This document shows, in pieces, positions 2,891 to 62,989 of a stretch of DNA of 64,000 nucleotides. The position numbers and the translations under genes were made by a program. The stretch covers positions 127,256,375-127,320,374 of the forward strand of contig NC_133121.1 of the NCBI RefSeq assembly GCF_033568475.1. The letters are read 5' to 3'. The DNA is from Henckelia pumila (taxonomy: Eukaryota > Streptophyta > Magnoliopsida > Lamiales > Gesneriaceae). Every line of letters starts with the position of its first letter. The stretch's first letter is position 1. Under the pieces are notes generated by a model, which was not told the origin of the DNA, searched no databases, and saw nothing but the letters and a program-made list of their open reading frames with translations.

Positions 2891-3072
2891 GCGCTCGGTC
2901 GGTTATTTTTGACCGATCGAGCGCCCCACTTTTGACAAATTTTCTGTCTCGCTCAAATAATGGTGCGCTCGGTCGGTAAAATTTGGCGGACCGAGCGCCC
3001 AACTTTTCTGAAGCCTACTGTCTCGCAAGGCGAGGGATGCGCTCGGTCGGTCATATTTGACCGCTCGGGCGC
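2891..3072. repeat. triple GC-rich palindromic module in copia LTR
   Basis: Three imperfect inverted repeats sit at 2891-2924, 2965-2998 and 3039-3072, a period of 74 bp. Each has a left arm close to GCGCTCGGTCGGT and a right arm close to ACCGATCGAGCGC around a loop of a few A/T-rich bases. The roughly 40-nt spacers are less conserved, though both contain CTGTCTCGC. They lie about 125-310 bp inside the 5' end of the LTR, upstream of the TATA-like stretch, so they belong to U3 if the LTR start is right. Confidence 0.85.
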
Positions 3073-3198
3073 ACTAATTTTTTTTTCTTTTATCAATTAA
3101 ATTTTATCCAAAAAGAATAATTGATCATAAGACCTCGCCGAGCCGAGCTGGCCGCGCGCGCTTGTTTGTTGCATCGATTAGCGTCTTGCCCCTTTACA

Positions 3199-4323
3199 AA
3201 ACATCCGGTGCCCTAAGAACCCAATCTCATAATCCAAAGTTGGATTATATAAAGTGAACAAAAACCCAAAACAAGTTTACCCTCCAATTTATTTCACCAA
3301 ATTCAAACTATTCCAACACAATTCAAATCAGCCTTTCAAGCTTATTTCAATTATAATTCATTCAATAATTATTCCAACAATTTTTCCTTCCCTAAATATC
3401 ATAATTACATGCAGTTATCATTTTTTATTTGAAACAAACCCCCCCTAATTTCAATCCAAAACCACGGCTCACTTTACTAACTGAATCTCACATTTTTATC
3501 TTCCTCTCATTCTCAATTTTCAGATTCAGTTCTTCCCGTATCTTCTTTTCAAATTATTACCGGGTAATCCTCTCAATGTCATTGGGCTTTTTTTGGCTAT
3601 TTGATATTGTTATGTACATGGATTATTTGACTTCATTGAACAACGCAAAAACAAAATAAGTATTTATATTTATGTATAAAGTACATTACACACGCAACTT
3701 TTGCTTGTGTTGTTGTTTGATTAAACTTAAAAACAAATCTCTGAAAATTAACGTGCACGGTTTCTAATCATTGGGTATTTGTATTTATTGTGACACCTGA
3801 ACTGGTAGTAACCGTCCCATGCAAACAATGCATGTGAATATATTTAAAGAAATTTGACGTCATCGATTTTTTTAAAAATAAATATATTTGGAATGATTAG
3901 TATTGAATATGCTCAAACATCTAATATAATTGGAAGTAGCATTTCTTGGATATTAATAATTTATTTACTATACGTGTCCCTTGATGATGCTAGTATATGG
4001 AGGAATTTAAATTAAATACATAACACTAATTGTTTCAAAAATAATAGTTTGTTGAACATGATTTTTTTAAAAAAAAATTGAAATGACACAAAATCAGATT
4101 TGCATTTGGATACTTTTAATGAAAACGCGAATCCAATCCAAAATAATAAAACATATATAAATCATAGTTTATGTTTCTTTTTTGCTTTAATATTATCTCA
4201 GCCAATTAAATACATTTTTTCCAATAAAATAATGGTGTGCACATATGTGGTTCGTATAAAAAATTAATTAAGAAACAACAGTGACATTGAACTTCAAAGT
4301 CATTCTCAAGGAACCCTCAGCTT

Positions 4324-4358
<35 letters not shown>

Positions 4359-4375
4359 TATTAATATATAATTTT
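3199..4375. other. intergenic, AT-rich, no gene seen
   Basis: Short open frames exist on the plus strand at 3254-3659 but have no recognisable domain and strongly AT-driven composition. An (AT)n run lies at about 4327-4355, directly before a small transposon. I see nothing else. Confidence 0.6.
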
Positions 4376-4542
4376 GATACCCTGCACCTAGGGGTGCAGG
4401 GTAACATGGATACCGCTTACGTGGCGGTTCATGATTGGTCAGCCGTTTTTTGTAAAAAAAAAAATAAAAAATTTGTGTGGTTGTGGGCGCGCCACGTTGG
4501 CAGGCGCCCACAGGTGTGTAGGGTAAGGGTGTGCAGGGTATC
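4376..4542. mobile_element. small foldback MITE
   Basis: The ends match as an inverted repeat, with GATACCCTGCACC at the left and GTGCAGGGTATC at the right. The inside holds TTACGTGGCGGTTCATGAT and a GC-rich stem (GTGGGCGCGCCAC). It lies beside an (AT)n microsatellite. The target duplication is not clear. The inner motif is shared with the foldback at about 16283-16430. Confidence 0.6.
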
Positions 4543-6640
4543 ATTTCTGTAAATCTTACACTCTTTTTTCTTTTTCTTTTTTTTGTTATAATGGGAATGA
4601 TATTTTTTGTTTTAATCGAAACACATTTCTCCTTTGTGTCACATGTCACAAGGTGTTTGACAAATATTCTTATTGTCGACCGTATTTCATCTACAAAATT
4701 AATACTGGTACAAGGGTAGAATTAGAAACAATCGTCAATCTCTGTAATTCGAAATAAACAATCGAACTTCAATTTTTTATGTGACCTTATTGCATGCGGC
4801 TTACATCATGTTATAGCCATCGGCACCAAGAGATTCCCACGAAGTAGATGTCGACAAGCAGATCACTCAATTAGTGTAAAAAAAGATTTGGTAATTTCAA
4901 ATTAAAGAGCATTTTTAATTAAGTAACTCGTCCATTAATGATCATGTAGATTTGAAATTTATGAACGATTTCAAGCGGATTCTCATCCATGCAAGTATTA
5001 TACTAAATTATCATAGATGAAAATAAAAAGTGACGACTATAACCGGGAAAAAAATCATGGTATCTTCCTAAAATATCGAAGTGCCAATATTGTAAAAATT
5101 CAAAAAAAAATATGAAATTATAATAGATGAGTAAATGATGAGAACTCATGTTATAATGGTATTTACAAATGAGTTTATGCAAGATATATAACTTGTTTTA
5201 TAAATAAATCCTCACACCCTTAGCAATGGATATAATCTTCTTAATTTACAACTATTTAAGTCAAAGAAAAATATAAAGTATAAAAACGATCGAAGCTATT
5301 TTAGTCAAAGAATAATATGCCAATAATGGATCTTGCATATCTAGCATTAACATATATAACGTCCCAAAATATTATTAATAACTAGGAACTATATATCTTA
5401 TGTGGTTTATACGCTCGCGCTCACATAATTGAATTATTTGAAGAAAAAGTTAATTTAAAAAAAACTATAAAAATGAATAAAATATATGTGAGTTTTGAGA
5501 TAAACTTTGGTGTCACATTGACACACTAAAGTGATTACTCTGATATTGTTCATGTATTATATATATAATAGCAAAAATGTTTTTAAAACAGAGAAAAGAA
5601 AAGGTGTTCATAAATTCAAAGGACCACGGAAGAGAACTCGAATCTATTCTTCAGCATAATGTTCAATTAAAAGATTCAAAATTTGAGAAGGAAAACTTTG
5701 AGTCAAGAATCTTTGAGACCCTCCCCACCCACCCAAGAAATCAGCCATAAAGAGAACTTTTTTAGATTATGGCATCAAATCCAATCATCCTTCGATTTGA
5801 TATATCTTCCTTCTTTCCTTTTTTTTTTTTTAAAAAATGCTAAAACAAATAAAAATGAAAAAAAAGATATAAAAACGAGTAGGTTAGGCGACAGCTGGCC
5901 TACGATATATACATATAAAAATGAAAAATGGTGCTTAGCCTGAACAAATGGACACTACTGTTTACGTAATCCAATTATAATCCGTAATAATAAATTGCTC
6001 TATCCAGATGTTTGGTGAAATTTGAATTGTTTGTTCAACTTGCGATAAATATATGTTATAGGTGCATGGAACTTATGCCCAAAATATACCAAAATACATG
6101 ACATCCTCATCATTATTTTCTTTATATGTAAGTAGCTAGACGTCCACATGCACGCGTACAAAGTTGGAGCTTCATGCCTTTATCCATTTCTTTTATTAAA
6201 GAATTATATATAAGAGTTTGATTAAAACTATAACAATTGACGAATAAAATCTATCAAATTTCAAAATTCTTGTAATTTTAATTTAAATGGATGAAAAATC
6301 TTGAATATATATGTATCCACCCATTGATTGATCACTGATCGATCATGACAATGGTATAAGATATATACAAGAGTCGTAATATATATACTGAAGATGATTT
6401 GATTATAATAGGACATGGTGACAACTGACACGTATGTTCTTTTTGCTACTAATAATTCGTTCGGTATAGATCAAATTCACTTACCCAAAAAACCAAAGTT
6501 CTAATTGGATACATTGCGATCGAGTGCATGAGCAACAATGATGCATGATTCATATCACAATCTGTCTATGAGAGAAGTCGGCATTGCTTTTATCAAATCG
6601 ACAAGCTAAAAAGCTATGTACCCATCACATGGATTTAATA
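4543..6640. other. intergenic, no gene seen
   Basis: AT-rich DNA with short open frames only (for example 5683-5943). No domain, repeat of note or RNA gene recognised. Confidence 0.5.
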
Positions 6641-6644
6641 TATT

Positions 6645-6732
6645 TGTCACCATATTTAAGTTAATTAGACTCCACCATTTCAATCAAGCTTCCATATTTA
6701 AGTTAATTAGACTCCACCGTTTCAATCAAGAG
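6645..6732 (+). repeat. tandem duplication, about 43-bp unit
   Basis: The unit ATATTTAAGTTAATTAGACT plus CCACC(A/G)TTTCAATCAAG occurs twice in a row with one or two differences. Confidence 0.8.
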
Positions 6733-6741
6733 GACGTTTAT

Positions 6742-6912
6742 TGTAAAACGGTCTCATGGATGTTTTTTCGTGAGATGGATCAATGTTACACATATTTATA
6801 ATAAAATTAATATTTTTGAAATAAAAAAGGACAATTTTCTCATGATTGAGTGACCTAAATAATATATCAATCTAACAAAATTGACTGGTCAGACTGTCTT
6901 ACATGAGTTTTT
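6742..6912. mobile_element. MITE-like repeat, GGTCTCATG family, copy 1
   Basis: It contains GGTCTCATGGATGTTTTTTC followed by GTGAGATGGATC, and ends with a partly complementary GACTGTCTTACATGAG. A diverged relative lies at 16724-16872, with GGTCTCATGAG and GTGAGACGGATC in the same order. Ends are not sharply defined. Confidence 0.45.
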
Positions 6913-6915
6913 ATG

Positions 6916-8780: not shown

Positions 8781-8790
8781 CTATATAAAC
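8781..8790 (+). promoter_or_regulatory. probable TATA box of the CYP78A gene
   Basis: CTATATAAAC lies about 115 bp before the start codon. A transcription start about 30 bp downstream would leave a 5' leader of about 80-90 nt, with CAATATCAAACTG before the ATG. This is inferred from position and sequence only. Confidence 0.55.
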
Positions 8791-8898
8791 CAGGATATCC
8801 ACAGCCATTTTCAAGCCCTCAAAACCAATTTGCTGAGCTTTCTCAAAACACTCATATATATAATATAATCAACAATATCAAACTGTATTCAAATCACA

Positions 8899-12048: not shown

Positions 12049-12090
<42 letters not shown>
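12049..12090. repeat. (AT)n microsatellite
   Basis: Uninterrupted alternating A and T. Confidence 0.95.
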
Positions 12091-12094
<4 letters not shown>

Positions 12095-15000
12095 GGTTTC
12101 CCCTGTTTATGTATAGTTGTATATGTGCCCATAATTCAGTGGTTTTGTTTTAAATAATGCGAAACAAAACGTAATGCTGATTGCATCAATGTCTCCTTTC
12201 AAATGGAAATTTTTTTTTAAAAAAACATCGTATTTTTGTAAGAAAACGGAAAATTGTGTTTGAATATTGTTAAAAAAAACGAAAGATGTATTAGTTTATT
12301 AATATGTTTTCGGTGATGCAATTAGCCCACGAAACGTATCAAGAGTTCGAAAATTTGGTTTTGGGAAAATTGTCACGTAAAAAAACTATACATTTTTATG
12401 GAAGTATTTAAACAAATCACCATTATTATTGTGTGATAGTGTGTAGAAATAAAAAGTCGCAATCTCCGTGCAACAGAATTTACAAATATTATATAACAAT
12501 TTGGAGATACGTGGTTTTACCCCAGGTGGAGAGTTGGGGGGTGGGGCTCCCCAAGTGGATCCTCGTTTTGAACAAGTGAATAGTGGAAAATTGACCCTAA
12601 AATTAAGGTTTTTTTTTAAATATATAGTTTAATAATTGCAGATGTGAATTACTGTGGCGACTGAATTCATATAGAAACAAATCCCAGGATTATTAAAAGT
12701 ATAAATACAAGGTTAATTAAATGAGCAGGTAGTGTAGGTGGTGCGTCATTGCTGATTGAAAAGTCGTCTTAAATGCATTCATCTGATTATGCCCTTTCCT
12801 TGTCTCTTCATTCCAAGGATTTTTCTTTTAATTATATATATCCCCTTTTATTAATAAACAATATCTAGCTATTAAATAGATTCTATATTTTCTTTAAAAA
12901 AACAAAGGGTTGATGACTTTGAAAAGCAAGCACGTTTTATTACGAATTTCAAATGGAAGTAATTTATTTTTGTATAAGATGAAGATGGACGACAAAACTG
13001 AAAAAGAATATGTGGAATTTGGAAATTCAACTATATCACTTGGAGCCAAGGAATATGAAATTGGATTCCAAAAACGTTTTTTTTTTTTAAAATAAAGAAT
13101 GGGTCTTTGTGAATGCTTTATCCGTGAAACGCGTCAAGCATGCCCATATTTTTAATAGAATTTTATATTTTTGATATAAAAAATTATATTTTTCAAAAAT
13201 GACCTAATTAAAAAATTCGTCACACAAAATTTATGTGTGCGATCCATTCACCGAAGTTTTTTTGTTTTTAAAAAAAATGAAGAAGAAAGAAACCATCCTT
13301 ATATGTAGTAATAGATAATAATTCTTATCGTAAAAAAGGATAATAATATTTAATTTGATTCCGAAATGAAAGGAATGGGTTTTACAAATAATGCACTAAA
13401 TCATTATTGGATAAAAAATATAAAAATCACGGCCGTCCAATTTTTTTATTATTATTTCCAAAAAAAAAAGAATCTTGAAACAGAAGAAAAAACACTTAAT
13501 TAATGAATTCAGAAGAAATTCTAAATAAAATTCAAATATCCTCCTAGCTCCAACGACGATGAGATTATTTTCGCAATAATAAAATTTTGTTTCAAGGAAG
13601 ATCTGTGTTGACATGCACATTTTAATTGCTACTTTCCACTATTTTTTCTTGACAATGCCCATAGATAATTAAAGGAAAAGAAATTAATCTTCGAGCTAGC
13701 AATGTTTTGTTTTGGTTTTAACGTTAATTGTAAACTCTTTTATGGAAAAACATCGAGAAATATTTTTTGGAAATAATAATATAATGAGTTTGATATTATT
13801 TTTTAATTCAGAAAATGATTTTTATCGTGTTTAACGGTTTGTAAAATCATGTAAACTTTTATTTGGATTTTGTACATCCAATAGGTGGATATTATCTCAA
13901 TCAGTACTTATATAATTAAGTATTCACAATTATTGTTCATCGTATCAAAACTAATTAGAAGAAGCCTGGAAAGGGCTAGCTAGAGAGCTATTAAAAACAA
14001 TATAATCGAAATGGCAAGGAAAAGACATAGAAAGAGACTTCCCACCTCTCCCCGGGGCTTGGTCTTTTAACCCTGGACTCCGATGGAGACATCGAATCGT
14101 AAACATATACACATTGTTGACTAAATTTTCGTGTTTTATTATATGTATTTGGATAAGTCCTTGATCTCTATACTATTATCTTATACAACTATATATTTTA
14201 TGTCGATTTCAGTCCCCTTCATGGATTTGGAGGCTAAATTTAAAACCATTTGTTTCATTCGCAACAAGTGTGCTCGATGCTCGTTACACTAATTCATTGA
14301 TAATGACGAGTTGAAATAGTTTTATTATAGACTAATTGCTTGGGAGTCAAGGGTACTACTTAATTACCAAATCATAGCCAATTATTAATTGATTAAGAAA
14401 GATCACTTGTTGTTTAGTTGCTTCCAAATCAAATTTTTTTGTAATTATTTTTTTTTTCTTAACTAGACACTAATATGACACCAATGTCTAACGCGGACTT
14501 TCAGGTACATTAATTATCACTGATTGCATATAGTTTGAAGATAAAACAGTGTACGTTGATCATATAAGATGGTGCAATAAATAATTCACTGCCAAGTAGT
14601 ACAATTATGTTTATGGATGGGATTTTTATGGTTGTTTGGAGTCGGGCATATCCCAAGAATCTAGCTAGCTGGGCTTCAAAGAAATGTACTAATTGCAGAA
14701 GCGAAAAGGACCAGTGCTCTCTGAATTCAATTATTTAATTCATGCTTTCATTTTCAAGTATGGATCCATGTATATGGACGATATTGACCAGTACTTATTT
14801 CACCCCCTAATTAAGAAAATCGCAAATCTTCTATATATAAATATATATGGAACATCTATCTATCTAGTCTAGCTTGTTATATATTATATCGATATCCTAA
14901 TTAATTAATTATAAGCGTGGAATATAGAATTAAGAAAGTTAATTTAATATGGCAAGTTCTTACTTACCAGTCGGAGACTCGTCCATTAATATATGGACGA

Positions 15001-15362
15001 ATTCAATGCTACTTAATTTAATAAAAACAGTTGGGATGCACGATGATTGATAAACTAACATCAAAATACACTATTATGCATATATATATATATTGGGAAT
15101 GATTTGTTCTATTATTCCATTTAAAAGATTAGATTTATTGTCATGATAATTGCATCTCATCATCCTTTCTTTAATTTCATATTATTCGTTTGCATTAGAA
15201 AGTCGAAACTTCAAGGCATTTTACTGGCTTCCAGAAGTAGTAACAGCCAAATATCTTAAAACTAGAGCTGGATGGAGTTAGATTTAATTAATAAAGTTAT
15301 CTCGACTGAATTGGCATGTGATCTTCACCAGGATTTTGTACAAGAAAACGAAGGCGTCACAT

Positions 15363-15365
<3 letters not shown>

Positions 15366-15399: not shown

Positions 15400-15401
<2 letters not shown>

Positions 15402-26349: not shown

Positions 26350-26761
26350 CAGAGTTTACGTGGCTGCACTCTTTTTTCCTTACTATGATTTTTATCCCAC
26401 TGAGTTTTTTCTAGTAAGGTTTTTAACGAGGCAGTATAAAACACGCAATAAAGACAATCATCATATCACGATCATCGTTACAAGGGAAGTGTTGAAAATA
26501 TGATATTATTATTATTATTTAAAGTTGAATGTTGAATGTTGAATATTGAGTTATAAAATGTAGAAAATTAGTGTCTGATGATGTAGATGATAACGTTTTA
26601 ATTTTTGGACTAATCTCCAAATGAGATCTATAAATAGGTCTCTCCATTTATGCAAAAAAGTCACAATTTTGAGAGAAGAAAATTTAAAGTGTAGAATTTA
26701 ATAATATTTTGAGTTTTTAAGTTTTTATCTTTTTACTATAAATATTATTTTTTTCACAACA
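26350..26761 (+). mobile_element. copia 3' remnant: internal tail plus LTR
   Basis: Bases 26350-26489 match, in opposite orientation, the 3' internal tail of the copia at 39361-39510 (GTGGCTGCACT, AACGAGGCAGTATAAAA). They end in a purine tract (CAAGGGAAG). The LTR 26490-26761 follows, starting TGTTGAAAATA and ending TCACAACA, with TCTATAAATAGG as its TATA box. No gag-pol remains. Confidence 0.8.
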
Positions 26762-44160: not shown

Positions 44161-44396
44161 GCACTCGTGCGAGATCTTCGTCTCGCGCGCGCGGGCTAGC
44201 TCGACAGAGCCCGACGGAAGACCTCGCGCTCGCACGAGACACACTCCTCGCGCGCGCGGGGTTACGAGACAGAGGCCGCAGGGGATTGCTCGCGCCTGCG
44301 CAAGGTACTCAGCTCGCGCGCGCGGGGGCAAAATAACCCGAGTCCCTCCAGGCCTCCCTTGCGCGCGCGCGAGGTAAAGCCTCGCTCGCGCGCAGG
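44161..44396. repeat. four GC-rich palindromic modules in the solo LTR
   Basis: Modules at 44161-44194, 44222-44261, 44287-44327 and 44357-44396 (period 61-70 bp). Each pairs a CTCG(C/T)GCG-type arm with a CGCGCGCGAG/CGCGCGGG arm across a 5-15 nt loop. The spacers are ordinary sequence. Confidence 0.75.
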
Positions 44397-44412: not shown

Positions 44413-47400
44413 TGTAACACCCAGAAATTCGTCACGTAAATTCGCATGCATAACTAAGGGATTTTAATAATTTTAAAATAAAGTGAAAATGTGTTAAATT
44501 GTTTTATGAGTTATTATGTGAATTATGTGATTTATTGGCATGTTTTAACTATTGTTTCAACATTTAAATCAGTTTGATGTGATTTATGAATTTATTTGAG
44601 AAAGCTTATTTTATGATCGCGTAGGCGGGACCGTGGACGGACGAGATGTTTTTTTTTCACCCAAAATATTTTTTGAGATTTTTAGGAGCCTTAAAATATT
44701 ATTTTAAGGTATAATTTGAAGAAAATTATGGTATTTATATATATGTATATTTAGATATCCATTTTTACTCAAAATAAGTCATCTTAATGACTTTGATTAA
44801 GTTTTAAAAATCCCCTATTTTACTATTTCGGGATTTATTAAGTTTTAGCAAATTAGCATGTATTTTTTTTTAAATTTCAAATTATAGTAATTATCTATCC
44901 AAAGTATTTATTTAAATATTTAACCTAGACTACCCAAAATATTATCCTACGTAAAATCAACTTTGAGCCGCCTCCATCATTCATCAGAAACCTCCTCTAC
45001 TTCACAGCACACACAACACGATTACCTTGAATAAAAATCAAGAGTTTGACGTATCGTTCGTCCCGAAGATCAATCTAAGCGTCGGTAACGTATATTCGAT
45101 CGAATAAGTCACAAAGGCACGTTTGAATTCCATTCTTGCGCACCGTTTAAATAATATTACAAGTTCTTAATGATTTAAAGTTTGATGTTGCATGTGCATG
45201 TGGTTTAGAATGGTAAAATTCACGGATTTAGCATGTACTCACGTTTTTTATAATTATGGCCATGTACTGTTCGAGCTTGCTGCACCATGGCTAGGGGACT
45301 GATCTAGGGTCCTTAGAGGTATCTTGGGGTGGTGTCTCGGCCATGGAAAGGGCTGCATCCAAGCTGGGCGTAGCTCTTCATCGGAAGCTGTAGATCGCAC
45401 AGCGTGTAGGAGGATGAAGGGTTCGGGTTATTCATGTAGGGTCTGAACTCGGGTCAGGCCTGGACCTATGGATGCGCTTGGAACCCTGGGTTGGTCCAGG
45501 TGTCGGAGCTCCGGCCAGTGGCGGCCGGAGCTGGGCAGAAAGGGGCGGAGTTGTGGTCTGTGCAGATCGCACAACCTGCAAGGGTTAACGGGTAGTCGGG
45601 TTCAGCCGTAATGGGGTTTTGGCTGGGCCAGGGCTGGTCTGTTGGAACCGGCAGGACCCTGGGGTGGTCCTGCCGGCGGCGCTCCGGCTAGGGATAGCCG
45701 GAGCTGGGCTATAGCAAGGGGGAAAGGGGAGACTGCCGTGAGGAGTTAAGAGGTAAGAATGGGGAGAAGGTCACATACAGTTTGAACTTTAGGTATTAGT
45801 GGGCCGGGCCCGAGTTTTGGGTCGGGGTCGAGTCTAAATTTATGGGTCAATTTACGAGTTTTGGGTCGGGGTCGAGTCTAAATTTATGTGTCAATTTATT
45901 TTTAGTCCGAGTCCAGATTATATTATTTGGGCTCGGTTATTTTTATTTTAATTAATTAATAGTTTAAGTTATTAATTAATGTTCTTGGGTTTGATTAAAT
46001 TAATTAATTGGACTAATTTAATGGGCTTTAATAATTATTGAGGTGAGCCCACTAATTTGTCATGGGCCGTGTGATCCATGATAATTATTGGGCCAAGTTG
46101 TGTCAGGTTTAGTAAATTTATCGGTCAAATTTATAAGTTAATGGTTAGTTAATAATTTTATTAATTTAACTTTAAGTTAATAAGTTGATGGGCCTAAATT
46201 ATGTTTTAAGTGAGCCCATTAGTTTTTCATGGGCCTGGGGCCCATGAAACTTAATGGGCCAGGTCAGGTTGGGCTTTTGGGTTTTTGAGTCAGTCTAGGA
46301 ATTTATGGGTTAAGTTAAGTGGTCAGCAGCTCGAACAAGTCCTTGAAAAAAATAAATGTCTGTAAATATGTATTTAATTAATGCATGCATTTTTATTAGA
46401 TATATAAGTATGATTTTTAAGAAAATAAATTAAATATATATTTACGGACAAATTTTTTTAAACTAAAGAAATAATGAGAATTTTTATGTTCATGCATCAT
46501 TAATAATTTTTATGATAAGTTTAAGTGCATGTTAAGAAAAATACATTTTTATGGAAGTTGAAGTGAAGGTGGAAGGTGATGTGGTTGGAGGCCGGAATAT
46601 CTGGGCCCGGTGACCTTCCTGATAATGTTTATGTATGATGATCTTATGGATCCAGCTGAGAGGGCTGGTGAAGTGGCAGCACAGAGGTGGAAACCCCACC
46701 GCCACGTACCTTGGTTTATAGATTGATCAATCGCTTAGTATGATGCCATCGACATGGATACGACCTGTTGAGAACTAAGAATTTATGATATGATATTTTT
46801 TTTTATGAAAATTATAAGATATAATGAATTATGTCACAGTTTGATGATTTAGCAGGATGATTTTTTATTCATGTTTATATGCATATAATTTTAAGATCAT
46901 GCACGTATATTTATATTCACGTATTTTATATGATGTGTTCTTGTGTGTGGTTTCATTTTGTTATGTAAGGATAGAACGCGCTGAGCCTCTAGGCTCACTA
47001 GATTTAAATGGTACAGGTGAGCAGAATGTTATTGAAGTTAATGTGTTCCCGACTGGCGGCGAGGGCGTATGAGTTTCCAGGCGGCTAGAACCCGTGACCA
47101 TCGCTCAATTATGATATTTATGTTGATATTTAGAATACTCATTTTCGCATATGTTTTATTTCTTTAGATTTTTAATATTTGCATGAATTTTAGATTTAAA
47201 TATTTATTTTCTAAGTTTGCATGGATTTTGTGAAACAATTATTATTTAGAAATTTTATTATGGAATATTTATAAATGATTATTTAGTAATTAATATTAAG
47301 TATTTAATTTCATGCGTGTACTTTATTTGTAAAGTTATTTTTAAGTTATATGTATTTTAAATTAAGTAAAGTTATTTTTAAGTATGATATATATATATAT

Positions 47401-51289: not shown

Positions 51290-52703
51290 TAGAAAGTGCA
51301 CTAGGTCAAGTAATAGTAAAATGGACATAGAGTTCAAGTATCGATCCCACAGGGACTATATCAATATGAATACGAGAATATGATTATTCTACTTAATCTA
51401 GACTAATAAAAAAGGGTGATGCATTTTCAGATTTATAACTAAAAAATTTAATTGTAAATAAATTTCAATTCAACAAAAATGCAGCATGAATTTTGGATTA
51501 AAATCAATATAGGAAAAGTTCGATCAAGGACGAAAGTAGGTACCAGACAAATTATGTAACAAGTAATCGATTTAAGATTCAGATTTAATTTTAATTCGCG
51601 GAAATTCTCCTATTTTATTCAAAGGACTATTTCTAAAACAATCAAACCTATTCAAATATTGACGGATTAATATTTCGTAATTCTTATCAAATTTGAATGC
51701 ATGAAGAACTATGAGAATTCATTATACACCTAAACCGCACACTGAAACCGAATTCTATTTCTAATCAGTTTTACAATATGTTGATTATCAAAGTTATCTA
51801 AATCGAAACCTCATCTGTCGACTTGGAATCAATTAACATGAAATCAAACAGTTGATCAGGCTATTCACAAGACAAATATAAATTTGAAAATCAATAAAAT
51901 AAAAGTAACTCTGAAATCTCAAATAAATAAAAAAGTTTTCTACATAAATTGTCTGGCCCAATCACGTGGCGTTGATCGAAAAGAGAAAACTACTCACTAA
52001 TAAACATAATTAACAATAAAAATTCTTAATCCAAAACATCAACTAAAAATAAAGAAGAGAAGAAGAACAATGGGACAAGATGATTGTTGTCGTCTCCTTG
52101 CCTCTGGAAAAAGTCTCTAAATTCTGGAACCCTTCAAAAGTAATATAAAATCCTATTTATAGTGTTTGGATCTCATCACAATTAAATTCCTTACGCCACA
52201 AGCAATTTCCGAACTTTCAAAATCCACAACACGCGTGCGCTCCTGAAAAGTAACTCGTGCGCTCTCAGGCCTACAAAACAGCATCCAAATTCCTTTCGCG
52301 CGCACGCGCAATATACCTTCGCTCGCGCGCGGTCTATCCTCAAATATTCTTGGAAATTTCTTCAGCGCTCGCGCGAGAGATGCAGCGCGCTCAAGCGCGT
52401 CTTCAAAACAAAGCCAGTGGAAATGTCTTCTACGCTCACGCCCAGATGTAATGCGCTCGCGCGCGCCTTGACAACTTCGGCACTGGAATTTCTTGCTGCG
52501 CGCACGTGTGGAAGATTCTTGCCCAAGCGCGAGACTTTAATCCATTTTTTCTTTTAAAGCTCCCTTTTCCTACAAAAATCAACCAAGGGAGTAAAATGCA
52601 AACACAATAACTAAAGTTTAAATAAAACACATGAAATAAAGTAAATGCATGCAAAATAAACATAAAGAAGACACAAAATAATGCATACACAATGCACTTA
52701 TCA
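51290..52703 (-). repeat. LTR of another retroelement (TGATAAGTGC start)
   Basis: On the minus strand a purine tract (AAGTATGGGGGTG) is followed by TGATAAGTGCATTGTG at 52703. The sequence then runs to about 51290 and includes the GTCCCTGTGGGATCGATACT motif that I associate with the 3' part of long plant LTRs. The left limit, where it meets the copia gag leader, is approximate. It is a 3' LTR with internal sequence to its right. Confidence 0.6.
52231..52533. repeat. five GC-rich palindromic modules in the TGATAAGTGC LTR
   Basis: Modules at 52231-52266, 52296-52332, 52364-52400, 52432-52468 and 52495-52533 (period 63-68 bp). Each consists of two GC-rich arms such as CGCGCGCACGCGC and GCTCGCGCGCG around an AT-containing loop. 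The spacers are about 30 nt and AT-rich. Pairing is less perfect than in the 57-kb copy. Confidence 0.7.
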
Positions 52704-54660: not shown

Positions 54661-54671
54661 CCTGCTGACAA
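54366..54671 (-). pseudogene. retroelement-derived open frame, unrecognised
   Basis: About 101 codons starting SAGPSTRPPPPPRRTAQD, then NNYVMDSFQATSTHLHN with a short coiled region, ending PEEKVDQ. The Pro-rich start and the position just inside the purine tract suggest the C-terminal end of a retroelement protein. I do not recognise the family. It is probably a broken end rather than a complete gene, as the frame is open upstream of the first Met. Confidence 0.4.
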
Positions 54672-55995
54672 TAGAAAGGGTCCACAAAACCGGTTCTTTG
54701 AAAATCACTGCTATATGTCTTCAATGTTAGCATTTTCCAAAATGATCCTAATAGTTATATCAATAAGACCAGTTTATAGAATTTTTTATACAACCAATAA
54801 TAAAAGGTATTCAATAGATACAATTTTCAAATCAATCCTGACACAATAGAGCAATAAAAGTTGTCCACATAATCGGTTATTTTGAAAATTGTTGTTACAT
54901 GTCTTCAATATGAGCAATTTCCAGAATGATCCTAATACTTATGTCAATAAGAGTAATTTTATAGTAGCGGTTGATATAAACTGTTACCAAAACTTTTGCC
55001 ATGGAAGCGGTTTCATAACCATTCCTAATATTAAGGCAATATAAACAATTTAAGTAAAACCAACTTTGTTGTTCAGTTTGCACGAGCAGTTTTAAGATTG
55101 CTCCTATAAACCCGATAGTTTGGTTTGCAAGAGTCGGGCTCTCAATCGTTAAATAGAGAGGAATAATTTATAGCATCGATTTATACAAACCGGTATTAAA
55201 AGTATTTAATACATATAATTTTTAAAGCAGTAGTTAAAAAATAGAGCAATAAAATTGGCTCAGAGCACTCGAATTGTCTAAAATGTTGTTAAAAATATTC
55301 ACCATGACAATTTCAAAAGTATTCTTAGTAGTTATACTAGCAGAAACGGTTTATAGCAGCATTTTATACAAACGGTACTAAATGTATTCAATGGGTACAA
55401 TTTAAAATAATCCTAAAAGGTTAGAGAAATAAAAGTGTTTCACATCACCATTTTTTTGGAAACTGCTGCTAAAATATCCAATATGAGTAGATAAAAAGTG
55501 CTCATAAAAACTATATCAATAGGAGCTTTTTCTAGCAGCGGTTTTATACAAACCATTGCTAAAATATTTTCAACGAGTGGGTCTTAAAATTATGACATTA
55601 GGAGCACATTCTAACACGGTTAATACAAACTGGTGCCAAAGTGTGTGTGTGTGAACAAAAGTGTTTAACAAACCACACTAAAAATTAAGATACTAGGAGC
55701 ACTCTCCAGGAACGGTTAATACAAATTGATGCTAAAATGTGTTTAGCAAGATCTTCAACAAAACCACGCTTAAAAGTATAACATTAAGAGCATTTTTCAG
55801 TAATGATTTTTACGTACTGGTGATAAAATGTTTTCAATAAGAGCGTTTAAGAAACCGTGCTTAAAAGTAATACATTAAGAGCACATTCTAGGAGAGGTTA
55901 TACAAATCGGTGCTAAAATATACTCAACAAGAGCGCTAAAGAAACTGCGTTTAAAAGTATGACATTAGGTGCGCTTTCTAGCTGCGGTTTATACA
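54665..55995. repeat. degenerate CACTA-like subterminal repeats
   Basis: Many loose repeats of AGCAGCGGTTTATACAAAC followed by TGNTGCTAAAA, alternating with GAGCA-TTTT and AATAAAAG words every 100-200 bp. Such GCGGTTT(A/T)-AACCGCTGC arrays are typical of the inner ends of plant CACTA elements. Neither a CACTA terminus nor a transposase is present, so it is a fragment. Confidence 0.5.
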
Positions 55996-56001
55996 AACTG
56001 A

Positions 56002-57309
56002 TGTGATGATATTTTCCTATATTTACTTGGATTAAATTGTGATGATTAGGTGCATTTTGATTGATTAAATTCATGTTTTAGTTCCTAATCATTGTATGCG
56101 ATTTGATATAGGAAAAGAGAAGAAATGGAGCTAAAGATGGAAGGAAAGAGCCAGATAAGAGAAGAATTACGAAGCAGCAATGGTCAGAAAATCATTTTTA
56201 ATCTTAGAGAAAACCAAATCCAATCTGTACAGTTCCAAATGAAGTTCAAGATGTTTTGAAGCAGCTGTCCAAATTTCAGCTCAATCCGACAGCTAGATCT
56301 CTGGATATGAAATTTTCAAAATTGCTGCTCGCTGGAAAAAAGTCGTGCTCGATCCTACAAACTCACATGATCGAGCGCGAGAAAAAAATTTGCAAACAGT
56401 AAGTTGGATATTTTTGCGCTCTCGATCCTACCAACTCATGCGATCGAGCATGCCCATGAGAGACGCAGGCAGTAGGTTCACCATTTTCTTGGCGCTCAAT
56501 CCTACCAACTCACAGGATCGAGCGCACCGAATTTTCCGAGAAATCTTTTTAAGTTAGGAAACTTATTTCTTTAGGACTCTTGTCATATTTAAGGGATTTA
56601 ATCTCGATTTTGACGAGAATTCTGGACGGTTTTGACGGCATTAAGCAATAGAAAGACATTGGTAACTAGGCTTTCTTCTCTCTCTTTTCTTAGATTTAAT
56701 TTTCTTTCATGAATTTTTCTAGAGAATTCATGAATATTTGTGGCTATGTTTTAGTACTTGGTTGAGGAAGACGAACCCTTGAGTTATTTTATTTGTGAGA
56801 TTCAGTTTTCTATTGTTTAATTCCAAATTGCTTATCAAGAGTTGTTTTGGATTTATTGCCATGCTTGTATGTGAGATTTAGGATTGATCACCTTAGAATT
56901 TTTCTATACAACATACTGCTAAATTAGAATTCAAATCCGTAATTCTTTGAATCATCTAATTTGTGAAGCAACTATGATTAATATTTTCTGCAGTTGAATT
57001 TATTAAATCGTAGGAACAACAATTGACTAGATTAAATATAATCGCTGGTATTGTGTTGTTTAGATTCATCAGTTTTACTAGTTTGAATGCTGCAGTGGAT
57101 TTAAATCTAATCGCTGGTATTGGGTTAATTTATGAGGTAATGGCTAACTTAGAACGCTGGAGTCTAGTTAACTAAAATTAAGGTGAAACAAGAATTAAAT
57201 TTCCAATGATGAATATTCAATGTGAATTAATTATTTTTAGGGAATCGATGATCGAATGAATAATTTCAATGGTGTAGTCGACCGATACCAAGTCTCGTTA
57301 GTTTATTGA
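56002..57309 (+). repeat. partial LTR (TGATGATATTTTCC start)
   Basis: Begins TGATGATATTTTCCTA and includes GATATAGGAAAAG, three hairpin modules and ATCGCTGGTATT repeats (57040 and 57110). It ends at 57309, where a gypsy element is inserted. Its 3' part would lie beyond the right edge. The start and composition match long LTRs of Tat/Athila-type gypsy elements as I remember them, which is not proof. Confidence 0.5.
56343..56527. repeat. three GC-rich palindromic modules, 75-bp period
   Basis: Modules at 56343-56377, 56418-56455 and 56493-56527. Each has a left arm near GCGCTCGATCC, a shared loop TAC(A/C)AACTCA, and a right arm near GATCGAGCGC. The loop itself is conserved between the three, unlike in the other cassettes. 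Confidence 0.85.
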
Positions 57310-59375
57310 TGTGAGACCTCGGTTCTAATCATCTAATCTCGGGATAAACAATAATTAAGCATACAAGATCTAAGATAAAAAGCAAAGAATTTTTTTTTAA
57401 AACAGTGCTCGCTCGATCGGTAAAACATTACCGGTCGAGCGGGCCATCTTAACCAAGTCTCTGCCGAGACTTAACAAAGGCCCCCGCTCGATCGGTAAAG
57501 TCTTACCGATCGAGCGGACACAAAATGCCCGTCTTCTGCCTCAGCTCAGGGGTGCTCGCTCGATCGGTAAGATTCAACCGATCGAGCGGCACAATTTTGC
57601 AGAAAGTAAAAACAGACATGCTCAACTCATTCCAACACCAAATCTCAAAACTAAATCCATTCAACAAGCATAAATCATCCAAACATCATTCATAATCTAA
57701 TACAAGGTAGTTCTAAAGTTATACAATCTCAAACTAATAGAACATGCATCAATCTAAGTTCCATAACCGATACAAAATGAGTTCGAATAAGATCTAATTT
57801 CGATTACATATTTGACTTCTAAAACAACAAGGCCTCACTCTATCAACTCAACCACCTAGCCATGCTGCCTCTGACTTGGTCCTGCCCCACCTGTTGCCAA
57901 GTACACATACAAACAAAGACAACAGCCGGATAATCCGGTGAGAATACAATTCCCAGTAAAAGAGACAAACATGCATATCAGATAAGCATTCCAAACGAAA
58001 TACATCAACTTCCAAATAATCAATTAACAACCATGCAATTCCACAGGCATGACTAAAACTCAATTCATATGCATAAATGCAATGCATGTCTTTAAAATCT
58101 GGGATTATCAAGTCGGATAATCAAAAGAGTTGCTACTTTTGCTTTTGGGATCCCGAGGACGAGATCATGTAAACAACTCACCGACTCTCCCGATCGAGGT
58201 GGTGCTACGTATCTCCATCCTCTAGACTTTGGTGCGACTATAAGGAGTATGCTAGCACTAGGTGAAACGGCTACACCCAGGCCACTCACAATATAGTCCC
58301 CAAAACGTCTATCATCAAAGGGCCGTCCTGCCCGCTAAAATCAAGAATTCTTGGTTCAAGATGAATGTAATGCAAACATAACTCAATCAACTAAATTCAA
58401 ATAAAAGCAAATAACATGCAAGTATGTGATTCTTCGGAACACTCGAATCAAGTCGGATTCGAGTTATTCGTTCCATTCCAATCCAAGTAATCTTATACCT
58501 CTTTTCAACAACGTCGATGCTCCAAACCTGGAAACAACAACGATTCCTCAAACAAGATTCAATCAAACTACCTCAATCGATAATAAGAAATCGGTACTAT
58601 ACCGGCTACAATCTCCAAGTTGCACAAAGCTGCAATCTCACAACTCCACTGGCCTCAAATCAATCTGTACAAGAAGTAATAAGGCTCGAGATTAACATAC
58701 AACTCAATCGAAGGCTTGGCTCAACAATTCAAACCGATAGACAATCCAAAACTCAAACCGGCGGCATAACGACTATAATCTGATCAAACCGGAAATGCAA
58801 ACATCATAATATCAATCCAATATACTCAAATAAATCAACATTCCACAAAAACAATCCAATTCCAACAAATCATAAAAACTCCATTTTCGAAAATCCCTTC
58901 CAAAATTCAAAACAATTCCGAACGACGCTCTATTTTGAAACCGACAGGGAATAAACGATCAGAACACGGTAGAGAAAAACATACTCGAAACTCAAACGAT
59001 TCTAATGACATCCCAAAACTAGAATGTATCCGATCGTAGAAAAACTTACGATATAACGGAGCTCTCGCTGCAGTGATCGCTAATCTGCCTTCAGAAATAA
59101 TTTCCAACGGACGGATCGAGCTCGGGATGAAATCTGGAAAGCTTGGGAGCTTGGGAATCGTCTTCAATGGTGGGGAGGCGATGGAGGAAGGAGGTGAAGG
59201 AGAAAATAACTCAATCCCATGCTTAAATATCTAATAAAGTCCAAATTTGCGTTTTAGTCCCTCAAAAATCCGAAATTTGCAAAAAGGACCCTGATCAAAA
59301 TTAAGTCGGCTCTTGATCTCTGGAATCTCCTATTAACTCAAATAAACTCATTTAAGATAAAAACGGGGCGTTACA
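57310..59375 (-). repeat. 3' LTR of the gag-only gypsy element
   Basis: 2,066 bp with TG...CA ends. Over the 745 bp that can be compared with the 5' LTR I count about 18 differences by eye. It carries three hairpin modules about 100-280 bp from its 3' end. Confidence 0.88.
57407..57588. repeat. three GC-rich palindromic modules in the 3' LTR
   Basis: Modules at 57407-57442, 57484-57517 and 57557-57588 (period 73-77 bp). Arms are GCTCGATCGGTAA and TTACCG(A/G)TCGAGCGG with loops of 4-7 nt. The first spacer also folds (AAGTCTCTGCCGAGACTT). Confidence 0.92.
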
Positions 59376-60415
59376 ATTCTTCCCCTCTAAGAAAAGATTT
59401 CGTCCTCGAAATCAAACACTGTTCCGACACGTACTGAGTCTCTCAAGTTACTCCTTCAAGTCCGTCAATCAAAATTCGACTCCTTTTCGTCAGAAAATCT
59501 TTCTAAGCTCAGTCACAATCAAATCATCTCTGGTTCCAACTCAAGGCATAAGATCTAAAATTCGACTTGTCTGATCTGGCTGTCCATCGTTCTGAGGATA
59601 TCGAACTGGATAAGTTGAAATCAGACAACAAAATCTCATCAAAGTCCTTGCCGAAAGAACGAGTGCATCAAGGATCTCTGTCTAAACTGACAGACTTCAG
59701 CAAATCATACAATCTGACAAAATTTCTGACCGAAATCTAACATCTGATCATGTTTGAGAATCATTCTGTAGAGAAAACACGGCAGATTCATCAATCGATC
59801 AATCATAAGAGATAGTAGATAAAATAAAAACAAAACTTTCGGCTCCAAATTATCCGTTGTTGCATACAATTCTTCAGATAAGGATTCGCAGACAGAAATA
59901 TCATACAATCTAATCTTCTCTGCCTCCAATTCTGTTCTGTCCGCGAAAACAAATTTCTTCAACTCCTTAGATCAGAACAGATCGCGTGAATTTTCTCATA
60001 AGACAATAGAAAACAGATCTTCTAATCAATAAGATCGCTACGAGAATCAAAGTCCAGATTCAGACATTGAGTCTTGAACGTATTCAGCTATCTCGATGTC
60101 TAGACTATAGCGCGATTCCTCTGAATAGGAATACATCCCGAAATCTCGATAAGAAGAAATCACTGATCGGCATAAATTCCATCACTAGCTCATAAAATCG
60201 AGGAAGACAACTTAATCCAAACAAAATTCAGACATCGAAGAATAGCATACAACTGCTCGGCACCACAATCTGCTATACAATTCTCAAAGCTCCGAAAGAT
60301 CAGCACAATTCTCATTCCAGACAGATAAGAAATCAACGATAAGAATTCCTAGTCTCAACTAATTCTTCTGAAAGATCCGGTTAATAGAAGATTAACAACA
60401 CTACAGGAGTATTCA
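59376..60415 (-). pseudogene. scraps of gypsy pol
   Basis: No long open frame. On the minus strand near 59570-59610 the reading YPQNDGQPDQ resembles the integrase YHPQTDGQSER motif, so pieces of integrase remain. Reverse transcriptase and RNase H motifs are not found. Confidence 0.5.
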
Positions 60416-61757
60416 TCAATTTGAACGATTCAACAATTTAATAGAGGCACGTTTAAACATAAACATATTCTTCAATAAGAAGGCAAGAGACTCGCCAGTA
60501 TCTAACAGCCCAATAAGATTAGGAAACTCAATATCGAACGTTACCTGATCTGACATTATCAGGTGCAGTCTGAGTCTGCGGATCCTCAGACAGAGCAAAA
60601 ACTCGTGCCTGCTGTCTGGGAGGCTGGCTTGCATACTGATTCCCTTCCTGTCTATTCTACTGCTGAGGTTGGAAGGAGTGGACAGTAGGTGCTTGTTGTT
60701 GAGCTGTCTGTCTCGAAGAACTTCCACTCTGTGCTTGCTCAGGGACACGCTGTGGACACGTTCTTGCAAAATGCCCCGCCTGGTTACAAATATGATAGCT
60801 TCCAAAAATACCTCTACACTGATCATTGGAGTGACGACCTCCGCAATTGGCACAAGACATGCCTGACTGTCCCGAACTCTGTCCCGATCCATACTGCCTT
60901 GAGCCACTAGAGCTCGAAGAACTGGTTCCGTGCTTCTTAAACTGCTTTTCTTTCCGATGATAGTATTCCTTCCTATTACCTCCACTGCTACCACCTTCAG
61001 AACTCGGTGGTTGATTCTGAAACTGAACATATTGATTCTGAAAATGAGATGGTTGGTTCTGGTATTGAGAAGATTGTGCCTGAAACTGTCATTGCTGTTG
61101 CTGAGGCACAAACTGACCTCCTCTCTGTCTCCACAAACCTGCTTCAGCTCCTTTTGCGTGATTCATGGCATCCGCAAAATTGTTAGGCCTATTGGTGTTA
61201 ACCAACGTGAAGACGTCGGGGTTCAAACCATTAATGAACTTATAAGCTTTTGCTTCATCATCACCGGCAATCAGCGGTGCAAAACGCAACAAACTATCAA
61301 ACTTAGCCACGTATTCCTCAATGTTTAGATTCCCTTGCCTCAGATTTGTAAACTCTGCTCCCTTTTCCTTTCGGTACGAAACAGGGAAAAACCGGTTATA
61401 AAATTCAGATTTGAAAAGAGTCCAAGTAATTTCCGTACCTCTACTCTCCATTGCTTTCTTCGTCATGATCCACCAGTTCTTAGAAACACCACGAAGCTGA
61501 TGAATGACTAACTTGGTTCGGCGGTCATCTGAGTAATCGATGGAATCAAACAACTGATCGATATCGTCCAACCAACTCTCACAGTCAACTGGATTTTCTG
61601 TACCCATCAACAAAGGCGGATATAAAGACTGAAACCTCTTCAGCAAGGTTTCCATAGGCGTCGCTGTAGTATCCATCTCAACAGTTTCAGTACTAGCTTG
61701 CTCAGTAGTAGAAATAACTGGCGGTGGGTTCCTGTTAATAACTCGTCGAGGACCCAT
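60416..61757 (-). pseudogene. gypsy gag with zinc knuckle and protease remnant
   Basis: Likely start is the ATG at 61757 (MGPRRVINRN). The retrotransposon gag domain is clear (CESWLDDIDQLFDSI, RGVSKNWW, FKSEFYNRFFP, EFTNLRQGNLNIEEYVAKF). A stop at about 61089 falls in a Gln-rich run. The same frame then continues through a Ser-rich linker and a knuckle (CNQAGHFARTCP) to a second stop at about 60657. A protease fragment LLDTGESLAFLL lies near 60480-60520 in a different frame. Two stops and a frameshift make it a pseudogene, although the first 223 codons are intact. Confidence 0.85.
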
Positions 61758-62156
61758 CTGATAATCAAAGGTTAGGACACAAGATATCTCATCGTTGCAA
61801 TCGGTGCCCTCGCAACCTCTCAGAATTCCGGATACAAGTGCAATACAGTTCATATCTCAAATAATTCATGCTTTACAATTAAAATCACATAATCATGTAA
61901 CTCAAAAAAATTCTCAACAATAAAGCATGCTCGCAAGGTATTTAAATAAATAAATTTAAGTAACTCAATCACATGCAAGAAATCAATTCATGCGGACTCG
62001 ATCTACCCCGCTCACTTCTAAATTCAGTCCAAGAATCTTATCGCTCTGATACCACTTAATGTGAGACTTCGGTTCTAATCATCTAATCTCGGGATAAACA
62101 ATAATTAAGAATACAAGATCTAAGATAAAAAGCAAAGAATTTTTTTTTAAAACAGT

Positions 62157-62338
62157 GCTCGCTCGATCGGTAAAACATTACCGGTCGAGCGGGCCATCTT
62201 AACCAAGTCTCTGCCAAGACTTAACAAAGGCCCCCGCTCGATCGGTAAAGTCTTACCGATCGAGCGGACACAAAATGCCCGTCTACTGCCTCAGCTCAGG
62301 GGTGCTCGCTCGATCGGTAAGATTCAACCGATCGAGCG
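62157..62338. repeat. three GC-rich palindromic modules in the 5' LTR
   Basis: Copies of the modules at 57407-57588, at 62157-62192, 62234-62267 and 62307-62338. I see no base difference in any arm or loop, although the surrounding LTR differs by about 2-3 percent. Confidence 0.92.
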
Positions 62339-62903
62339 GCATAATTCTGCATAAAGTAAAAACAGACATGCTCGACTCATTCCAACACCAAATCTCAAAA
62401 CTAAATCCATTCAACAAGCATAAATCATCCAAACATCATTCATAATCTAATACAAGGTAGTTCTAAAGTTATACAATCTCAAACTAATAGAACATGCATC
62501 AATCTAAGTTCCATAACCGATACAAAATGAGTTCGAATAAGATCTATGTTCGATTACATATTCGACTTCTAAAATAACAAGGCCTCACTCTATCAACTCA
62601 ACCACCTAGCCATGTTGCCTCTGACTCGGTTCTGCCCCACCTGTTGCCAAGTACACATACAAACAAAGACAACATCCGGATAATCCGGTGAGAATACAAT
62701 TCCCAGTAAAAGAGACAAACATGCAATATCAGATAAGCATTCCAAACGAAATACATCAACTTCCAATTAATCAATTAACAACCATGCGATTCCACAGGCA
62801 TGACTTGTGAGACCCCGTTTCTAATCTCCAAAACTCGAATAATTAAACACAATCGATCAAAAAAATAACAGCGGAAGATAATCAGAATTTTTTTTAAAAG
62901 CCA

Positions 62904-62989
62904 TGCGCCCGTGCGAGCGCAGGCAACGTGGACAATGGCTCGCGGAAGTGCTCGCGCCCGCGCGAGAGGGAAGCTCGCGCGCCCGCGGG
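62904..62989. repeat. two GC-rich palindromic modules in the gypsy fragment
   Basis: Modules at 62904-62945 and 62949-62989, with arms such as GCTCGCGCCCGCGCGAG and GCTCGCGCGCCCGCGGG. They lie about 100-185 bp from the LTR end, as in the solo LTR at 44048. Confidence 0.7.

Follow-up and report, generated by a model that had tools for sequence, protein, structure and literature searches.

Do the long terminal repeats (LTRs) of unrelated retrotransposon families share one array of palindromes, and if so, what might the array do? The question is raised by a stretch of 64,000 nt from the Henckelia pumila genome (RefSeq assembly GCF_033568475.1, contig NC_133121.1, positions 127,256,375 to 127,320,374 of the forward strand; hereafter the window), in which a first-pass annotation had named seven LTR places, of copia and gypsy type, as carrying evenly spaced GC-rich palindromes. 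We found that four of the seven hold the same cassette of three palindromic modules: one copia LTR, one further LTR (LTR56) and both LTRs of a gypsy element (gypsy57 and gypsy62). The places at 52 kb and 62.9 kb could not be confirmed as carriers, and the one at 44 kb is borderline.

The palindromic cassette and its carriers

Each module is a 34-nt dyad, CGCTCG(A/G)TC-N14-GA(T/C)CGAGCG, and a cassette contains three of them, about 74 bp apart. The cassettes, modules and spacers in the window are as follows.

2891-3072: copia cassette, three dyads
2891..2924, minus strand: copia module 3, 34-nt dyad, promoter-proximal
2965..2998, minus strand: copia module 2, 34-nt dyad
3039..3072, minus strand: copia module 1, 34-nt dyad, left arm degenerate
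2925..2964 and 2999-3038, minus strand: copia spacers
56343-56527: LTR56 cassette, three dyads
56345..56378, plus strand: LTR56 module 1
56418..56451, plus strand: LTR56 module 2
56492..56525, plus strand: LTR56 module 3
56379-56417 and 56452-56491, plus strand: LTR56 spacers
57407-57588 and 62157-62338: gypsy57 and gypsy62 cassettes, three dyads each, in both LTRs of one gag-only gypsy element
57409..57442, minus strand: gypsy57 module 3
57484..57517, minus strand: gypsy57 module 2, perfect 15-bp arms
57556..57589, minus strand: gypsy57 module 1
57443-57483 and 57518-57555, minus strand: gypsy57 spacers
62159..62339, minus strand: cassette of the gypsy 5' LTR, modules at 62159-62192, 62234-62267 and 62306-62339

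With up to 3 mismatches allowed, the pattern GCTCGRTC-N14-GAYCGAGC matched the window 15 times, against 0.17 matches expected from 100 shuffles; three of the 15 are off-register duplicates, leaving 12 modules. Palindrome scores compared with 40 dinucleotide shuffles gave z values of 5.2 for copia, 8.9 for LTR56 and 10.0 for gypsy57. Successive modules are 74 and 74 bp apart in copia, 73 and 74 bp in LTR56 and 72 and 75 bp in gypsy57. This range is tighter than the 61-77 bp first given.

The carriers of these cassettes were delimited as listed here.

2603..3130, minus strand: copia LTR, 528 bp; genome copies align over query positions 1-528; closely followed on this strand by gag/pol domains
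56004..57300, plus strand: LTR56, starting TGATGATATT at 56004; approximate right end, unassigned superfamily
57310..59375, minus strand: gypsy 3' LTR, 2,066 bp, a 97% repeat with 62056-62805; start read at 59375 beside a purine-rich tract
61089..61856, minus strand: gypsy gag open reading frame (PF03732, PF19259)
62043-62054: primer binding site TGGTATCAGAGC of the gypsy element, 5 nt from the 5' LTR
62060..62805, minus strand: gypsy 5' LTR, broken at 62806 by another LTR

That the cassette crosses superfamilies was borne out, the copia carrier having the domains Retrotran_gag_2, Pol_BBD and rve and the gypsy carrier Retrotrans_gag and Ty3_capsid. Among the best 120 of 144 proteins found with the gypsy gag (E <= 0.001), the nearest are from Henckelia pumila (Gesneriaceae), and Primulina and Dorcoceras are also present. 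The copia LTR and LTR56 (positions 56004-56800) each have 40 scored genome copies. A 93% identical LTR on the same strand, about 5.4 kb off and beyond the window, would be the partner of the copia LTR in an element of about 6.0 kb; at this length the copia carrier matches classic copia elements and not Sireviruses. LTR56 is directly preceded, at 54669-55997, by degenerate repeats, some of them arranged in tandem with a roughly 90-bp period. Three pieces of 56004-62550 recur near-identically at C3:28216989-28223535 in the same LTR56/gypsy57/gypsy62 layout; two alignments cover all of 491 and all of 797 bases at an identity that rounds to 100%, and gypsy62 is 98% identical to the query in both. 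Either the segment was duplicated recently, or the second place is a haplotype copy or a product of assembly.

In order to place the carriers by their flanks, we combined three window cassettes with 35 cassettes, each of at least two modules, located within the initial 2.4 Mb of contig C1; the latter are the first places listed for one contig, the last 20 of them hand-picked with some near-duplicates skipped. Clustering required consistent orientation, and seven inconsistent pairs of LTR56 and gypsy type were dropped. The 38 cassettes fell into four flank families: 26 gypsy-like, 7 LTR56-like, 4 in a family called fam2 (L081, L083, L087 and L092), and copia alone. One of these families is copia and one is gypsy; for LTR56 and fam2 the superfamily is not established. 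Among the 31 of 38 cassettes that are at least 170 nt long, mean cassette identity across families was 0.51-0.63 (best 0.75), whereas cross-family flank identity was 0.42-0.51, near the random baseline of 0.49. Clustering and identities together uphold the claim that copia and gypsy LTRs otherwise unrelated have in common the layout of module, spacer, module, spacer, module. Whole cassettes may have been exchanged, as also proposed in the first-pass annotation, perhaps long ago; the cassettes compared across families are not near-identical, and no recent copia-gypsy exchange was seen in their identities. The shared array may be either an old common cassette or the product of convergence on one composite site.

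The remaining three places, referred to here as class B (the palindromic cassettes being class A), are CTCGCGCG-type CpG-rich tracts.

44161..44396, minus strand: class B tract in a gypsy-type LTR; z 2.0, CpG observed/expected ratio (o/e) 1.39
52231..52533, minus strand: class B tract; z 0.2, 69 nt upstream of TATAAATA (52154-52161), TATA score 9.8
62904..62989, minus strand: class B tract in a gypsy-type LTR fragment; z 1.2

The 52-kb tract scored 7 for palindromicity, with a largest value of 17 among 40 dinucleotide shuffles, and the 62.9-kb tract scored 9 (largest shuffle 16.5). The 44-kb tract is borderline, its 20.5 exceeding all 40 shuffles (largest 18.5). None of the three is among the window matches to the module pattern at up to 3 mismatches. 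All are CpG rich (o/e 1.39-1.59). We rejected the class B CTCGCGCG tracts as proven members of the cassette, because their palindrome scores lie at or near those of dinucleotide shuffles, and the earlier view that they are the same palindromic cassette is not sustained. The 62.9-kb tract belongs to an LTR with TGTGAGACC ends (62806-62989) that is inserted into the 5' LTR of the gag-only gypsy element, and this inserted LTR has a class B tract where its host LTR has class A modules.

Rfam gave no match within the window at the gathering threshold. No match to the module pattern was found in viral contigs, no relative of the gypsy gag in a search for related loci and nothing for a piece of the gypsy LTR in a megablast search of plasmids, each in a collection poor in plants and hence uninformative. 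Translated cassettes had no candidate with three words in common in the protein database, and translated modules matched only 4 of the 120 gag relatives, all at gag residues. Two other palindromic sites were observed in the window outside the cassettes. Three GC-rich palindromes, nearly perfect and unrelated in sequence (AGCTCCGGCC..., CCGGCAGGACC..., GCTCCGGCTA...), are clustered at 45507-45704, and at 4378-4403 a near-perfect 26-nt palindrome, TACCCTGCACCTAGGGGTGCAGGGTA, adjoins an AT repeat.

Geometry, conservation and symmetry of the modules

The genome was scanned over 884,658,702 bases in 133 contigs. The exact 16-base core with a free centre occurs at 26,391 sites, and the reversed-pattern control at none; because the core pattern reads alike on both strands, a scan of either strand counts one and the same set of sites. 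The pattern GCTCGATC-N{4,34}-GATCGAGC gave 25,724 matches (control, 4), and among 100 matches listed the centre was N14 in 95, N15 in 4 and N18 in 1. Duplicate modules and cassettes were merged before intervals, conservation and co-variation were counted. In the fetched loci, 304 modules in 105 distinct cassettes provided 199 intervals with a mean of 73.8 bp, of which 151 were 73-75 bp, in a scan that joined only modules 66-82 bp apart; when modules were joined at up to 100 bp, 37 groups had intervals of 71-79 bp. The number of modules varies, with one cassette of four (L092, 552-804; 73, 73 and 74 bp) and one with an extra single module 185 bp beyond the last (L032). A sub-form with longer perfect arms, GCTCGGTCTGCT..AGCAGACCGAGC, occurs at G000:C1:1307461, 13308792, 41513130 and others.

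Within families, the standard deviations of the two intervals were 0.40 and 1.03 in gypsy57, against 0.69-5.18 for 74-nt flank segments; the corresponding values were 2.30 and 2.68 against 0.92-3.69 in copia, and 0.42 and 0.51 against 0.37-0.85 in LTR56. Since intervals within a family are not always steadier than flanks, the argument for a ruler rests on the agreement between families.

Mean pairwise identity was measured in alignments of 21 copia, 37 gypsy57 and 17 LTR56 sequences. Arms were better conserved than flanks in all three families (copia 0.903 versus 0.878, gypsy57 0.959 versus 0.857 and LTR56 0.909 versus 0.840). The same was observed at CpG sites (0.942, 0.935 and 0.888 versus 0.826, 0.841 and 0.747, in the same order) and, in gypsy57 and LTR56, at non-CpG sites (0.989 versus 0.858 and 0.919 versus 0.849). 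Conserved half-sites at fixed spacing, as expected of an array for a dimeric protein, were thus found.

True partners within a module were compared with partners drawn from a different module in that cassette. At pairs 2-10 true partners were no better matched; pair 2 itself reached 0.54 for true and 0.46 for cross-module partners (80 cells), and pair 8, with a G-C form at 891 genome sites, gave no co-variation in the within-cassette test (0.48 versus 0.52). Variable arm pairs mostly change on one side only, as if two sites each match a consensus, and such changes persist at the level of subfamilies, for example at pairs 5 and 9 of copia module 1. Variants or a mismatch are common at 21 module pairs; Watson-Crick pairs are swapped at only 3 of these, and the others involve a mismatch. 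The one-sided changes at pairs 2-10 and the rarity of Watson-Crick swaps suggest that the arm sequence is kept, and not merely pairing.

In contrast, pair 1 matched its true partner at 0.57 versus 0.32 across modules (140 informative cells), and pair 11 at 0.49 versus 0.33 (114 informative cells). In the gypsy sample from C1 the values were 0.57 versus 0.22 for pair 1 (46 cells) and 0.69 versus 0.15 for pair 11 (26 cells). The inner pairs were also analyzed in 70 distinct inner sequences from the core-site listing with 300 shuffles. The Watson-Crick share exceeded every shuffle at pair 11 (0.71; shuffled mean 0.45, largest 0.64) and pair 13 (0.49; mean 0.28, largest 0.46), stayed within the shuffles at pair 12 (0.77; mean 0.68, largest 0.79) and did not go beyond them at pairs 14-17. 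In 111 contexts, mostly gypsy, pairs 11-13 gave 0.90, 0.82 and 0.80 versus 0.74, 0.75 and 0.68. Co-variation of pair 13 was not seen in the within-cassette test of the gypsy sample (0.29 versus 0.37). Genome-wide, pair 11 is G-C at 14,078 sites, C-G at 3,912, G-G at 1,525 and C-C at 1,708, an odds ratio of 21, to which no probability is attached because the copies are not independent; 1,440 C-G sites would be expected under independence, and 3,233 of 21,223 sites (about 15%) are mismatched. Symmetric co-variation at pairs 1, 11 and 13 is real but leaky. The compensatory changes that the first-pass annotation proposed to look for in family alignments exist at these three pairs, and its suggestion of selection on pairing stands as some selection on, or maintenance of, dyad symmetry, not with pairing as the sole selected property.

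The spacers of about 40 nt were compared among copia, gypsy57 and LTR56, the families whose sense is known independently. For the three pairs of families, mean local scores were 7.42, 7.53 and 7.97 in the sense-sense comparison, 6.21, 5.56 and 5.54 in antisense, and at most 6.04, 6.17 and 6.19 in 20 shuffles. Sense scores were raised overall in the gypsy sample from C1 as well. The motif G(A/G)CAG(A/T)A is present in 0.52, 0.30 and 0.38 of the copia, gypsy57 and LTR56 sense spacers and in 0.00 in antisense. Spacers of fam2 matched those of gypsy57 and LTR56 best in the antisense of an arbitrary starting sense, and those of copia hardly (6.80 versus 6.58); the sense of fam2 was inferred from these spacers, so the family was left out as evidence of polarity and was flipped for the comparisons of TATA score, conservation and cassette identity.

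A putative enhancer-type array and its alternatives

TATA-like sites were scored with a position weight matrix (PWM), taking the best score within 300 nt on each side of a cassette. By chance, scores of at least 6 arise at 1.4 sites per 300 nt and scores of at least 8 at 0.8 (0.78). The sites in the three class A families are given below.

2787..2794, minus strand: copia TATA-like TATATATA; distance from the cassette 96 nt, on its downstream side in element sense; PWM 8.8
56586..56593, plus strand: LTR56 TATA-like TATTTAAG, 58 nt downstream of the cassette; PWM low, 3.2
57394..57401, minus strand: gypsy57 TATA-like TTTAAAAA, A/T rich, adjoining the downstream side of the cassette; score 6.1

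At all seven places named earlier, the best score lies downstream in element sense: 8.8 versus 5.9 upstream for copia, 9.8 versus 4.8 at 52 kb, 3.2 versus 1.6 for LTR56, and 6.1, directly adjacent, for gypsy57, gypsy62 and the 62.9-kb tract (upstream 2.9, 2.9 and 0.2), with a near tie at 44 kb (5.7 versus 5.6). Only the 52-kb TATA box stands out on score, because scores of at least 6 and at least 8 are common by chance. In LTR56, TATTTAAGGG within the TATA-like site is kept in 16 of 17 aligned copies, the remaining one being TATTAAAGGG. The gypsy LTRs, including by eye those of the C1 sample, have an A/T-rich run after the cassette and end about 100 nt past it, beside the primer binding site in the 62-kb copy of the window. 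Measured from the LTR ends, the cassette does lie near the 5' end in some LTRs and near the 3' end in others, as had been stated, but the best TATA-like score is always downstream, and the cassette is likely to be located upstream of the promoter. Class A cassettes have a CpG o/e of 1.2-1.5, compared to 0.92 across the window.

We consider it somewhat better than an even chance that the cassette is an enhancer-type array in U3, built of dyad-symmetric DNA sites for a putative dimeric host protein. Each cassette would comprise three such sites, each made of two inward-facing CGCTCGATC half-sites separated by a centre of constant length, 14 nt. The spacing of about 74 bp would come close to seven helical turns, a directional second element resembling G(A/G)CAG(A/T)A would occupy the spacers, and the likely core promoter would follow downstream of the array. 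Each dyad may be bound by one or two dimers of a host DNA-binding protein, and three occupied sites on one helix face may jointly enhance transcription of the element's genomic RNA. Since such a protein would be available to every element, the same array could be carried by copia and gypsy lineages that are otherwise unrelated. Protein binding, activation and the route of sharing among families are what we infer here from sequence. Of the roles proposed at the outset, binding by a dimeric protein agrees best with these results and RNA structure less well: the absence of a preference for G-U, the rigid centre and the likely position upstream of the promoter together favor a site acting at the level of DNA.

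Several observations weigh against an enhancer-type array. The TATA scores are modest (LTR56 3.2, gypsy 6.1 and copia 8.8) relative to the chance rates, and in the C1 sample the mean downstream score in sense was 5.6 for gypsy, with antisense controls of 5.0 and 5.6, and 2.9 for LTR56-like cassettes, with antisense controls of 4.6 and 4.2. The interpretation as seven turns is based on one spacing class, and only one of six window-family intervals, the first of gypsy57, is steadier than all flank segments of equal length. Non-CpG arm sites in copia are less conserved than flanks (0.858 versus 0.882), the CpG o/e reaches 1.33 in a copia LTR segment outside the cassette as well, and the spacer motif is found in 0.07 of the gypsy sense spacers from C1 (shuffled 0.006). 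Finally, pairs 1, 11 and 13 co-vary, beyond what a dimer site of fixed specificity by itself requires.

This co-variation supports an alternative in which each module would form a stem-loop in the element's RNA and pairing would be selected, whether at the 3' end of the genomic RNA or, if transcription starts upstream, in the leader, for packaging, dimerization, strand transfer or stability. The replacement of G-C by C-G at pair 11 in far more sites than expected also speaks for RNA hairpins. Nevertheless, G-U is not favored over A-C in sense (93 versus 154 of 2,832 cells; without copia, 85 versus 107), few of the varying pairs show a Watson-Crick swap, and the length of the centre is nearly constant. 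Pair 11 is mismatched in about 15% of sites, and the modules would fall outside the 5' leader if the copia and LTR56 TATA-like sites are real. Stem-wide compensatory change and tolerance of G-U, as expected of an RNA structural element, were not found, and we regard RNA hairpins as unlikely. Symmetry could also arise by mutation. LTRs undergo reverse transcription in each cycle, and template switching by reverse transcriptase at imperfect palindromes could copy one arm onto the other, such that arms co-evolve without any need for pairing, in an array that may still function. Symmetric double changes do cluster beside an otherwise fixed core; yet this process leaves the conservation of arms above flanks, the fixed N14 and the polar similarity of spacers unexplained, and the one-sided changes in copia module 1 persist in subfamilies. 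We judge mutational symmetry a little less likely still than hairpins.

About as doubtful, or slightly more so, is the possibility that the cassette is a target of host silencing, its repeated, CpG-rich palindromes drawing small RNAs and methylation and being tolerated as by-products. The CpG o/e of both classes (1.2-1.5 in class A and 1.4-1.6 in class B) would suit a silencing target, as would the precedent of the maize Sirevirus palindrome in the excerpted accounts (PMC10760457, PMC5311732). A harmful target should nevertheless be lost, yet the arms are overall better conserved than the flanks; a silencing role may also coexist with the enhancer role. By far the least probable source is a separate small unit, mobile or satellite in nature, with LTRs as its insertion sites: the cassette is indeed present in four flank families, but in the three of them whose sense is known the spacers keep one polarity with respect to the element, and cassettes of different families are not near-identical.

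Returning to the enhancer-type array, a broader proposal is that one host transcription factor or complex is a shared dependency of many LTR retrotransposons, acquired by exchange or convergence and acting as one switch. We put this forward tentatively and consider it less likely than not. If true, a large part of the retrotransposon load would be under one switch. The more than 26,000 natural variants of one putative binding site may show which property is selected (sequence, symmetry or spacing), and the array allows a test between host factors driving convergence and LTR segments moving between superfamilies.

Comparison with known arrays

Tnt1 and other LTRs contain short repeated, sometimes palindromic regulatory boxes. 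Unlike such boxes, the Henckelia array spans superfamilies, and its core occurs at more than 26,000 sites. Among the matches listed from the open-licence PMC literature, judged by titles and the starts of abstracts, there was no account of this array or of Henckelia LTRs. Palindromes as insertion targets (PMC6911290) are a separate matter.

A segment common to gypsy and copia LTRs has a precedent in einkorn. In the excerpted report (PMC11302176), the QuinCent motif of the wheat gypsy family RLG_Quinta is homologous to a segment of the copia RLC_Gisela LTR, and its acquisition is proposed to have occurred, for example, by gene conversion. The Henckelia array resembles QuinCent in being a defined LTR segment common to a gypsy and a copia family in one genome. 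It differs in that QuinCent involves two families, a 162-bp motif and the placing of CENH3 nucleosomes, with no palindrome array in its description as excerpted. The near-identical segment in unrelated LTRs expected from a QuinCent-like exchange was absent among the Henckelia cassettes compared.

The closest likeness is to the repeated motifs (RM boxes) of Sireviruses. The excerpted account of Bousios et al. 2010 (PMC2829016) describes these as palindromic repeats in CpG islands upstream of the TATA box, and palindromic promoter arrays have there been presented as a Sirevirus feature. The maize Sirevirus palindrome is CACCGGAC-NNN-GTCCGGTG in the text drawn on (PMC10760457), and small RNAs map to maize Sirevirus repeats (PMC10760457, PMC5311732; both as excerpted). 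The CGG-CCG core of RM boxes recurs in the commonest core form in Henckelia, GATCGG..CCGATC, but is not the invariant part of the module, because 3,912 sites have C-G instead of G-C at pair 11. As in Sireviruses, repeated dyad-symmetric GC-rich palindromes lie within LTRs, and have sequence in common between otherwise divergent LTRs. They may likewise form a CpG island shortly upstream of a TATA box, with a CpG o/e of 1.2-1.5 and TATA-like sites of modest score 58 nt (LTR56) and 96 nt (copia) downstream, but with a weak A/T run in gypsy and with C1-sample scores no better than the antisense controls.

The hosts of the two arrays differ. Sireviruses, one copia genus, average 10.55 kb with LTRs of 1.28 kb, compared to 5.60 and 0.56 kb for classic copia elements, if the table columns of the excerpt are read as full length, linker and LTR (PMC2829016). 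The carriers here include gypsy LTRs and a copia element of classic size, with a length of about 6.0 kb and an LTR of 528 bp, and so, by element size and by the gypsy carrier, are not the large copia elements with long LTRs that host RM boxes. The Henckelia dyad is also distinct from the RM boxes of that account in its 34-nt length and fixed 14-nt centre, usually in threes about 74 bp apart, and in its polarized spacer motif. The presence of the array in classic-size copia and gypsy LTRs of one genome makes it a testable case for a shared control switch. The putative U3 palindromic array is of a known kind; what is new is its spread across superfamilies, its tight ruler and its polarized spacer.

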